64,000 nt of DNA from Erysipelotrichaceae bacterium (lineage in GTDB: Bacteria; Bacillota_I; Bacilli_A; Erysipelotrichales; Erysipelotrichaceae). Each line of letters starts with the position of its first letter. Positions within the stretch are counted from its first letter, which is position 1. The position numbers and the translations under genes are program-made. Where the stretch lies: the NCBI GenBank assembly GCA_022767445.1, contig JALENJ010000013.1, positions 1-64,000 on the forward strand, in the 5' to 3' direction. Shown here in pieces: positions 46,499 through 59,864 of this stretch. The notes beneath the pieces are model-generated. The model did not search any database and was not told where the DNA came from. It worked only from the letters and a program-made list of their open reading frames with translations.

Positions 46499-47359
46499 AT
46501 GCATGACATCTGGAATCCATGGCATGGATGTAAAAAAGTCAGCGAAGGCTGCCAAAACTGTTATATGTACTACTTGGATAAAAAACGTAATATGGACGGT
46601 TCACACATCTATCCCACCAACAACATCAAATATCCACTCTCAAAAAATCGAAGAGGTGACTACAAAATCCAAAGCGGAGAACTCATCCGTGTCTGTATGA
46701 CATCCGACTTCTTCCTTGAGGAAGCGGACCAATGGCGAGACCAAGCATGGGATATCATGCGTATGCGAAGCGATGTTAAATTCTTTCTACTCACCAAACG
46801 CCCAGAAAGAGTCAAGGACTGCCTACCCAACGACTGGAACGATGGATGGGAGAACATCATATTCAATATCACAGCCGAAAATCAAAAACGCGCAGATGAA
46901 CGCATTCCCATCCTGCTAGACCTACCATTTAAACACAAAGGAATCATGTGCGCTCCCCTCTTATCAAAGATACATATCGAAAAATATCTCAGCGATGAAA
47001 TCGAACAAATTATCGTCGGAGGAGAAAACTACGATGGTCACCGCCCATGCCATTACGAATGGGTAAAAAGCCTCTATGAACAAGCCACCGCAAAAAACAT
47101 CACCTTTGCCTTCACCGAGACAGGATCCACATTCGTAAAAGACAACAAAACCTACAATATCCCAAGAATCTTACAATCCCAACAAGCCTTCCACTCAGGA
47201 CTCCAACACCAAGGAAGAAAACACAACTACATACTCACAGATTCATTCAATAATCCAATTCCAGAAGAACAGCTCTATGTCAGACGCTTTGAAGAAGAAT
47301 GCGAAACCTGTGGTACACGACTAATATGTAATGGTGTCGACCCAACACAAATCAAATAA
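46499..47359 (+). CDS. DUF5131 (phage Gp37/Gp68-like) protein
   Basis: A 286-residue protein with the family's opening WNPWHGCKKVSEGCQNCYM, giving Cys at about 11, 18 and 21, then MTSDFFLEEADQWRDQAWDIM, FFLLTKRPER, GGENYDGHRPCHYEWV and a C-terminal CETCGTRLICNGV cluster. The N-terminal cysteines suggest a metal or iron-sulfur site, and the fold resembles radical-SAM-like barrels, but no reaction is known. It is divergent from livK and followed by a strong terminator, immediately before the mobile element. Confidence 0.88.
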   Translation: MHDIWNPWHGCKKVSEGCQNCYMYYLDKKRNMDGSHIYPTNNIKYPLSKNRRGDYKIQSGELIRVCMTSDFFLEEADQWRDQAWDIMRMRSDVKFFLLTKRPERVKDCLPNDWNDGWENIIFNITAENQKRADERIPILLDLPFKHKGIMCAPLLSKIHIEKYLSDEIEQIIVGGENYDGHRPCHYEWVKSLYEQATAKNITFAFTETGSTFVKDNKTYNIPRILQSQQAFHSGLQHQGRKHNYILTDSFNNPIPEEQLYVRRFEEECETCGTRLICNGVDPTQIK

Positions 47360-47616: not shown

Positions 47617-48921
47617 CTATTTATTTCTTTTCTTATATTCTACATTAATACTTTTTTTAATTAAATCGACTCTGATATATTTTATATATTTGTAAATTAA
47701 ATCTTTCAAATTCTCAGTATCAATAAGTGGTGTATTCCCCTCACTCTGCTTCTCGACTTTTTTAAATATTTCTTCCCTTTCATTAACTAGGTTTTCATAC
47801 TTTTTTATAAGAATTTCATTTCTTCCTTGCTTTAATATTAGATCGATTACGGAATTTATATCCTTCTCAACTCTCTTCAGGTATCGCAAAAAGCTCTCTC
47901 TTGCCTCTTTCATATGTTCCTTATCTAATAGGTGAGATAGCTTATATTCTACTTGTTCTTCTATGCATTTCTGACTAATTCTGCTATTGCAGCATTCACA
48001 AAAATAGTATTGATATACTCTATATACCTTCCCTCTGATTTTCTTATGTGTGCTATCGCATTTTAATGTACTTCCACATTTTGAACATACTAAAATCCCT
48101 CTAAATGGATACTGATATTTCTTTTTTCTTGAGCATAACTTAACTCTTTCCAATGCAGCTATCTGTAGATCTTTAGTTATAATTGCAGGTATCACACCTT
48201 CATAAACTTTCCCATATAGTTCAACATCTCCTGTGTACGCTCGATTCTTCAATATCCTATATATATCCTCCTTCCACCATCTCTTTCCTAAAGTTTTTTC
48301 CTTCTTAAAATCCTGATATATTTCATTAGCAGTTTTTTTACCGCTTGCTACTGTTTCAAAAATATAGCGAATGTATCTTGCTTTCTCTTCATCAATGATT
48401 AAATAATGCTTATCCTGCGGATCTCTAATATAGCCAAGTGGAACTTTTGACTTGCAATAATACCCACGTTCTAACGCTTCTGACATACCTCTTTTTGTTC
48501 TCCATGATATGCTATCTTCCTCCCATTGAGAAATTACTCCAATCATTAATATAAACGTCCTACCAGATGGAGTTGTTGTATCAATATTCTCTGTAATACT
48601 TACTAGTTCGATTTGATATTCTTCTAGTAATTCTATTAAATATGCTAAATCTTTAACACTTCTTGTAAGTCGATCCAAATTATGAATAATCAATATATCA
48701 ATACTTTTTGTTTTGATTAATTCAATTATTGATTGTATATGTGGTCTTTTTAAATTTCTTGCTGAAGCACCACGTTCTTCTCTTATTTCTAATTCATAAC
48801 AATCTGCTTCATATTTATATTTACAATATTCCTCTATTTTTCGTTTTTGTTCACCAAGATTATACCCATTTACTACCTGCCATTGGGTAGATTCCCTAAC
48901 ATAGCCAATTATCTTTTTCAC
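47617..48921 (-). CDS. Large serine recombinase (probable integrase of the element)
   Basis: A 434-residue recombinase: N-terminal catalytic domain with GYVRESTQ (probable nucleophile Ser in REST), LDRLTRSVKDL and the invariant-type Arg pair, then the Recombinase domain (VPLGYIRDPQDKHYLIIDEEKARYIRYIF, in part) and a zinc ribbon (CSKCGSTL with later CECC), ending in a coiled coil. Such enzymes integrate and excise elements at attP/attB. Starts at GTG 48921, with AAGGAG 11 bases upstream. Its position at the end of the element fits an integrase. Confidence 0.92.
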   Translation of the reverse strand: MKKIIGYVRESTQWQVVNGYNLGEQKRKIEEYCKYKYEADCYELEIREERGASARNLKRPHIQSIIELIKTKSIDILIIHNLDRLTRSVKDLAYLIELLEEYQIELVSITENIDTTTPSGRTFILMIGVISQWEEDSISWRTKRGMSEALERGYYCKSKVPLGYIRDPQDKHYLIIDEEKARYIRYIFETVASGKKTANEIYQDFKKEKTLGKRWWKEDIYRILKNRAYTGDVELYGKVYEGVIPAIITKDLQIAALERVKLCSRKKKYQYPFRGILVCSKCGSTLKCDSTHKKIRGKVYRVYQYYFCECCNSRISQKCIEEQVEYKLSHLLDKEHMKEARESFLRYLKRVEKDINSVIDLILKQGRNEILIKKYENLVNEREEIFKKVEKQSEGNTPLIDTENLKDLIYKYIKYIRVDLIKKSINVEYKKRNK

Positions 48922-49603: not shown

Positions 49604-49653
49604 TTCTTTTCCTCATAACCTTAACTAAAACATGTAAAGTCACACATATTTGT

Positions 49654-49659
49654 TATAAT
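49654..49659 (+). promoter_or_regulatory. Extended -10 promoter of the structured RNA
   Basis: TGTTATAAT gives TG-N-TATAAT, an extended -10. No clear -35 is present. The RNA would start near 49665 (GGGAGC). Confidence 0.65.
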
Positions 49660-49664
49660 ATTTT

Positions 49665-49890
49665 GGGAGCTATTTTATAGCCCCATGGAGGTGGTTTTTA
49701 TAGCCTCAAATTTACGCATGCTATCCCTAGGGCAAATATTTCCTAAAAATGGAAATGGTGCAAATAGTAGTTGTTACATTGCAACTACTTGTTGCTATCA
49801 TCCAAATTTGTAGAGAGGTATTGAAGACTAAATAGTCTTCACCTAGGATAGCGTGCAAATTGAAAAGAGGAGTTGGTCGCTCCTCTTTTC
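49665..49890 (+). ncRNA. Candidate structured non-coding RNA, about 225 nt
   Basis: The unit runs from an extended -10 promoter to a perfect terminator hairpin. Hairpins in order: GGGAGCTAT/ATAGCCCC (49665-49684, bulged); GAGG/CCTC (about 49688-49707); a closing stem GCATGCTATCCCTAGG (49716-49731) with CCTAGGATAGCGTGC (49842-49856); inside it ATTTCC/GGAAAT, AGTAGTTG/CAACTACT and GAAGACTA/TAGTCTTC; then the terminator. This is a multibranched fold. No ORF has a ribosome binding site. It lies on the plus strand, opposite to all other genes of the element, upstream of the resolvase gene. I do not recognise a known RNA class. Confidence 0.75.
49862..49890 (+). terminator. Terminator of the structured RNA
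   Basis: GAAAAGAGGAG (49862-49872) pairs perfectly with CTCCTCTTTTC (49880-49890) around 7 bases, followed by CTTTG. Confidence 0.88.
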
Positions 49891-49980
49891 CTTTGCCCTA
49901 AGACAAAACATTTCCTACATCATTATTATAATCTTTACCGAAATATTTTCAACTATAAGGATTTTGTAGAAAATAAGTTC

Positions 49981-50008
49981 GTTCAAATAGGCTATAGTCT
50001 ATTTGAAC
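49981..50008 (-). terminator. Hairpin, probable terminator of the 50138-50617 gene
   Basis: GTTCAAATAG (49981-49990) pairs perfectly with CTATTTGAAC (49999-50008). A second 9-base inverted repeat, TATGTGTAT/ATACACATA, lies at 50029-50069. The rest of 49891-50137 shows nothing I can name. Confidence 0.55.
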
Positions 50009-50137
50009 ACTTTCCTTTTTAAATATTATATGTGTATCTAGAGTAAAATGAATACCCTAAATACACATATTTGCTTTTTCTAGAAAATTGACTCTAAAAA
50101 CCCAATAATCACTTCATTATTTAGATTCAATTTCTTT

Positions 50138-59009: not shown

Positions 59010-59864
59010 TTATTTTTTCTCTTTATAATCTTCAAATCTCCATTCTGTGATTCTTCGTGCCACTACAACATATGGATTGTCTGTTTTATTACTGCATACA
59101 ATAATAAGGAATTTATTTCTACTCGTTGATTTTAGATCGGAGTGTATTGTTGATGCATTCTTATATGTGCTATACCAATCTTCAAAATCTTTCTCATTCT
59201 CAAAATTTCTCTTATCGATATCAAAATCAGGTGCATCTTTCAAATTGAATGCTCCATCAATTTCAAAAGCTTCAGCATATCTCAAATGATAGACAATCAT
59301 ATAACGATGCTGCTCATATTCACTCTGTGATGTTAAGAAATAATCTCTCAAAAAATCATATTGTGTCATATCACCGTTAGAGTAGTTATAGATTGTATAT
59401 ACATGATCGTTTTCTTCATCCGCATCTTTCAAGATATAGCCTTGTCCTGCGTTGGATGTTGCATCTGTACCATCTCTATCCTTGTAATACTCTCTATTAT
59501 CAGATTTCATGATACGCATACCAATTTGTGTAGGAGGAAAATTAATCCAGCCAGTTAGCTCTTTATTGTATGTATTGTAAAGAAGATTGTATGTGTTTTG
59601 CACATATTCAAAGTTATTTACAAGAATCGCTGTTCTTTCTATCTCTTTTAGTTCTGGGTCTTCGATTTCTTTACTTTCTCCCCATTCATTCAAGTTATCA
59701 TCTTGATTTTGATTCTCTTTTTCCTCTGGGGGCGTTTCGCCCCCAGCACTATTTTGTGTAGTTTCATGATTTTGAAAACGGTCTTTAATTAAAAAGTGAT
59801 ATGTTCCCATTCCAATTAAAGCTATAACTACACCAGCAATTATCATCTTTCTTAATCTACTCAT
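59010..59864 (-). CDS. Membrane-anchored conjugation-region protein, unknown
   Basis: A 284-residue protein with one N-terminal helix (MIIAGVVIALIGMGTYHFLI), a Pro/Gln/Asn-rich acidic linker and an extracytoplasmic domain (about 75-284). Its position between the hydrolase gene and hicAB, and its topology, recall VirB8/TcpC-like channel proteins, but no motif confirms this. It follows the hydrolase gene by two bases. Confidence 0.7.
   Translation of the reverse strand: MSRLRKMIIAGVVIALIGMGTYHFLIKDRFQNHETTQNSAGGETPPEEKENQNQDDNLNEWGESKEIEDPELKEIERTAILVNNFEYVQNTYNLLYNTYNKELTGWINFPPTQIGMRIMKSDNREYYKDRDGTDATSNAGQGYILKDADEENDHVYTIYNYSNGDMTQYDFLRDYFLTSQSEYEQHRYMIVYHLRYAEAFEIDGAFNLKDAPDFDIDKRNFENEKDFEDWYSTYKNASTIHSDLKSTSRNKFLIIVCSNKTDNPYVVVARRITEWRFEDYKEKK

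Follow-up and report, generated by a model that had tools for sequence, protein, structure and literature searches.

We found that the structured RNA described here is very probably the toxin mRNA in a type I toxin-antitoxin module, judging from its sequence and layout. The module appears to be organised like par(pAD1) and, by the tests made, to be a member of neither the Fst nor the TisB family. It was found in the stretch of 64,000 nucleotides that was analysed (the window), in a conjugative element containing a MobL relaxase, a coupling protein, a TraG/VirB4-like ATPase, a large serine recombinase and a small resolvase. The structured RNA unit adjoins the gene of the small resolvase. The features identified are listed in Table 1.

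Table 1 Predicted features of the module and its surroundings (positions in the window).
Feature	Position	Strand	Basis or remark
Small serine recombinase (resolvase) gene, 189 aa	49034..49603	-	Pfam Resolvase, 1.4e-40
Perfect extended -10 of toxin mRNA, TGTTATAAT, lacking a good -35; predicted promoter	49651..49659	+	Sequence
Toxin mRNA, ~229 nt (the RNA of the first-pass annotation)	49665..49893	+	Fold z -10.2; layout common to related loci
G-rich transcription start, predicted	about 49665	+	Sequence
5' hairpin GGGAGCTATTTTATAGCCCC	49665..49684	+	Fold
SD-like GGAGG, mostly buried in hairpin 49688-49707	49687..49691	+	Computed pairing
Closing stem, 5' arm, long-distance	49716..49731	+	Fold; compensatory changes over 12 loci
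Direct repeat copy 1, putative antisense target, ending 3 nt 5' of the toxin ATG	49725..49745	+	21-bp duplex
Toxin ORF (predicted), 28 aa, MEMVQIVVVTLQLLVAIIQICREVLKTK	49749..49835	+	Inside closing stem; stop at the model position of the related toxins
Hairpin GAAGACTAAATAGTCTTC around the toxin stop codon	49823..49840	+	Fold; GACTAG..CTAGTC here in related loci
Closing stem, 3' arm, long-distance	49842..49856	+	Fold; compensatory changes over 12 loci
Predicted antisense antitoxin RNA, ~60 nt, overlapping the 3' end of the toxin mRNA	49858..49918	-	Promoter and terminator; complementarity
Bidirectional terminator hairpin common to both strands, 11 bp, loop TTGGTCG	49862..49890	.	
Direct repeat copy 2, the complement of the antisense 5' end	49896..49917	+	
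Antitoxin promoter (predicted), TTGAAA-16-TATAAT	49925..49952	-	11/12 consensus bases
Probable res site I, 28-bp near-perfect palindrome	49981..50008	.	Related sequences at two other places in the same genome

We analyzed the fold of the transcript. The plus strand (~230 nt) was found to fold at -96.7 kcal/mol, compared with -53.6 +/- 4.2 kcal/mol for dinucleotide shuffles (z -10.2, 0 of 200). The extended -10, G-rich start, hairpins, closing stem and terminator reported in the first-pass annotation were all present at 49651-49893 of the plus strand. The six hairpins it had counted exist, but they include a coding region. Its description as a self-contained plus-strand unit was right in that the unit has its own promoter and terminator, but a convergent minus-strand promoter uses this terminator too. 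The T-run of the terminator lies partly within the stem, and the hairpin was therefore missing from the list of a simple terminator scan. We also computed the accessibility of the translation signals. In the full-length RNA, the mean unpaired probability was 0.21 for the GGAGG and 0.23 for the start region, while the GGAGG was freed when the RNA was cut short at the toxin stop (mean unpaired 0.94). When the sequence was searched against Rfam, a check that the first-pass annotation had proposed, no family reached its cut-off at gathering or relaxed thresholds and the best sub-threshold matches were chance-like. This agrees with its statement that no known class fits.

We then examined the pairing between the two predicted RNAs. 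The first 23 nt of the antisense RNA lie outside the overlap and were predicted to pair with 49725-49745 in a duplex of 21 bp (-27.9 kcal/mol), an energy matched by 0 of 2000 dinucleotide shuffles of the target. As DNA, this duplex corresponds to the imperfect direct repeat 49725-49745 / 49896-49917. A plain local alignment of the repeat in the window was not significant (score 13, 31% of shuffles), and it is the RNA duplex, in which G-U pairs are counted, that stands out. In a set of 71 comparable hairpins of terminators in AT-rich DNA, the window ranked first on antisense pairing as well as on the closing stem. The minus-strand -10 was located 34 nt beyond the terminator; where a terminator was recognised in a related locus, this distance was mostly 33-46 nt.

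The minus-strand promoter could instead drive the resolvase, with the structured stretch serving as a 5' leader or attenuator of its mRNA. The promoter does lie between res and the resolvase and is directed at the latter, the fold of the minus strand is strong (z -7.7 against dinucleotide shuffles), and a terminator on this strand would attenuate. However, relatives of the resolvase lack such a leader, and the layout of promoter, terminator and repeat recurs in the related toxin loci, with the plus strand as the toxin-encoding one. We consider this explanation highly improbable.

The predicted toxin has the profile of a single hydrophobic membrane helix (19-residue hydropathy up to 2.4) followed by a basic C-terminal tail. 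Its best family in both Pfam (E 0.026) and NCBIfam (E 0.0014) was TisB. An ungapped alignment with E. coli TisB (NC_000913) contained 11 identical and 18 similar residues. Its score was reached by none of 20000 composition-preserving shuffles and was the best among 4001 short ORFs compared. The two peptides are similar in length (28 aa versus 29 aa for TisB), Q19 and K26 are kept, and positions 5, 12, 19, 22 and 26 are polar. The curated cut-offs of TisB were missed, with 18.4 versus 38 bits for TIGR04459 and 15.4 versus 25 bits for Pfam. As a control, the short helix peptide of an unrelated module was found to match Ycf12 at E 5e-4, so similarity of short helices at the level seen with TisB is a lead and not proof. 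The toxin in the window thus appears to resemble TisB, and we do not claim membership since the scores fall below the curated cut-offs. Neither Pfam nor NCBIfam gave a match to a family of Fst-type toxins at E values of up to 10, and the module was therefore not filed as Fst. A LexA-like (SOS) box at the window was not above chance.

We searched for relatives of the exact ORF by tblastn of the 28 aa in plasmids and phages and by six-frame searches of 395 and 273 genomes, which returned no relative. A degenerate TisB-type codon pattern gave chance frames only in viral and genome collections, and a stricter pattern gave one chance match. The toxin ATG at 49749 lacks a proper Shine-Dalgarno (SD) sequence, with an AGGG 16 nt away, and the core ATG of most related loci likewise lacks one. 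This suggests that translation may depend on coupling to an upstream SD or on a standby mechanism.

The lack of an SD would also fit a truly non-coding regulatory RNA with a coincidental ORF, as would the strong structure on both strands and the position beside the resolvase and res. The first-pass annotation had taken the unit for a structured RNA that could control excision, recombinase expression or copy number. This function gives way once the 28-codon toxin-like ORF and the convergent antisense partner are recognised. The ORF encodes a membrane helix with a basic tail, it is placed and terminated where the related loci have their toxins, and none of the 20000 shuffles reproduced its ungapped TisB-like pattern. 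A non-coding RNA is thus improbable in our assessment.

We searched for related loci to compare their layout. DNA searches of 60 relatives, 395 genomes of the class, plasmids and phages yielded, apart from chance matches, only one lead, in which the terminator of the window was found in a related locus (L026) of genome G142. A match in an E. faecalis plasmid was discarded as chance, as it lay within a coding region. In G142, the terminator ends a small gene, MGILSCCTVASLLKMDIGIIIELIILYLIVKEMKK, which has a convergent promoter and its own repeat. Relatives of the MGILSCCTVASLLKMDIGIIIELIILYLIVKEMKK peptide were found in 15 of 196 genomes from the same bacterial family. The toxin core of these loci (L119-L165) can be written as M[DN]I..II..(V/I).LYLIVKE(I/L)KK.

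At least 12 loci of the same bacterial family were found to share the layout of the module, with other hydrophobic toxins. The common order is an SD, the 5' arm, repeat 1, the core ATG, the stop, a GACTA..TAGTC-type hairpin, the 3' arm, the terminator, repeat 2 and an opposite TATAAT. The sequences of the repeats and stems vary between loci but match within each locus. Over 12 loci including the window, 93.9% of the cells of the closing stem were paired and 8 of 11 pairs had changed on both sides. The covariation was 0.676, compared with 0.264 in shuffles (0 of 500), and collapsed in slid registers; these values are somewhat favored by the arms having been cut by hand, partly guided by complementarity and anchored at GTGCAA/GTACAA. 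The effect size and the slid-register control argue that the conservation of the closing stem is real despite the hand-cut arms. Loss of the pairings in homologues had been named at the outset as grounds for rejecting a structured RNA; compensatory changes have preserved the stem in the window and in 11 related loci.

We built an RNA profile of the 3' half without the window. Its top place in the 64-kb window was 49812-49922 on the plus strand (E 1.1e-5, 39.8 bits), and the ORF stop fell at the same profile position as the stops of the related toxins. In other genomes, however, ordinary genes have terminators that reached 40.4 (L153) and 38.8 bits (L155), so the score of the profile is not decisive alone. 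Matches to the profile were found in 20 of 265 genomes, and some of these are ordinary terminators. A profile of the core toxin did not recognise the toxin in the window (score -1.0, no better than shuffles), and the homology therefore rests on the RNA layout. The L119-L165 loci appear to be a type I toxin-antitoxin family that Rfam does not contain and that neither Pfam nor NCBIfam recognises. Since the profile and the stop position agree while ordinary terminators score alike and the toxin core is unmatched, we call the locus in the window a putative diverged module with the same RNA architecture, in which the toxin may have been replaced.

Some variation was observed among the L119-L165 loci. 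Tandem copies were found in genome G576. Several loci carry an SD-bearing leader ORF that overlaps the core in a different frame, and in others the two are fused in frame. Translational coupling or frameshifting is possible.

We compared the module with known systems. The par(pAD1) locus of Enterococcus faecalis (Fst / RNA I - RNA II) consists of a ~230-nt toxin mRNA and a short antisense RNA made from convergent promoters that share a bidirectional terminator; direct repeats make the two RNAs complementary in a second place, at the toxin start, a stem-loop buries the SD, and the 5' part pairs intramolecularly (PMC7472228). The predicted module resembles it in all of these respects and in its location on a mobile element. 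Unlike par(pAD1), the module has a covarying 5'-3' stem that encloses the whole ORF, its sequence is unrelated, and it has no Fst match. As in TisB / IstR-1, the toxin start appears to be under the control of a structured 5' UTR. IstR is upstream and divergent, whereas the antitoxin predicted here is convergent and overlaps the 3' end. The L119-L165 loci resemble the module in the order and spacing of the RNA parts, the terminator GAAAAGAGGAG..CTCCTCTTTTC, the stem, the repeat and the opposite -10, and their core is shorter (about 21-23 aa versus 28 aa). The timP/RyfA transcript was first annotated as a non-coding RNA and is a toxin mRNA (PMC11228461). Like the RNA in the window, timP/RyfA and AapA1 are structured toxin mRNAs kept inactive by folding, but their sequences are unrelated and their antitoxin arrangement is different.

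Conjugative elements carry single-strand origins, and the high fold potential of both strands could suggest that the stretch acts as single-stranded DNA and not as RNA, as a single-strand origin or a hairpin attachment site. Against this, G-U pairs and compensatory changes are limited to one sense, transcription explains the geometry of promoter, ORF, repeat and terminator, and a DNA search gave no match to known origins. The idea of a single-strand origin was dropped after the transcript layout and the homologues were found, and we give a DNA element next to no credence.

Based on the reading as a type I toxin-antitoxin module, we propose a mechanism in which every step after transcription is drawn by analogy with par(pAD1), tisB (PMC8309996) and timP. 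The toxin mRNA would be made but kept closed by the 5'-3' stem and the SD hairpin. Processing, partial melting or a structural switch could open the mRNA and expose the start. The short antisense RNA would bind via the terminator loop and the repeat, block the toxin start and prevent translation. If the element were lost, the antisense RNA would run out first, and the membrane peptide would be made and harm the cell. In this way the module may stabilise the conjugative element, beside its resolvase/res system.

With this reading, what had been an orphan structured RNA can be tested as a toxin-antitoxin module, and a family of similar modules comes to light that is missing from the libraries searched. 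The compensatory changes in the stem and the locus-specific repeats predict which bases would silence the toxin. We also considered, as a tentative idea that we regard as rather unlikely, that the module is a chimera, in which the par-like RNA chassis common to the family has had its toxin cassette swapped for a TisB-type pore peptide. If so, type I modules would swap their toxins while keeping a fixed frame of RNA control, and peptides of the TisB type would also occur outside enterobacteria.

To characterize the location of the module, we compared the distance between the palindrome and the start of the resolvase gene. This distance was 391 nt in the window compared with 121-149 nt in four relatives of the resolvase, which fits the insertion of a module of ~245 nt; such a module was probably inserted between the resolvase and res. 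Among further relatives, one had a candidate palindrome at 293 nt and others had no clear one. No RNA was found beside the relatives in viral contigs. Relaxase and coupling-protein scans yielded nothing. The insertion is consistent with a stability cassette, and with a toxin module between the resolvase gene and res, two functions in plasmid stability would be combined within a short segment of the conjugative element.

We found the res-like region of ~110-130 bp (window 49981-50110) to be repeated on two other contigs of the same genome, at G000:C18:144-255 and G000:C54:37116-37233. These repeats are 82-90% identical and have no adjoining resolvase gene. An 18-bp inverted repeat at window 50028-50070, beside res site I, probably represents res subsites. 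A DUF5131 gene (radical SAM-like, phage Gp88-like) abuts the large serine recombinase gene (window 46499-47359 and 47617-48921) at what is presumably the left end of the element. The contig of the element also contains seven exact copies of a palindrome, GGGGGCGAAACGCCCCC, with a 7-bp stem and an AAA loop. One copy is located at window 59728-59744 on the minus strand and the others lie beyond the window, at G000:C59 64122, 66281, 66468, 67434, 70023 and 71829 (L048). All copies in the genome fall within 12 kb, and the palindrome is absent from 20 related genomes. It reads as GGETPP within several unrelated proteins of the conjugative element and seems to be either a small palindromic repeat that spreads or a signal for transfer or replication.
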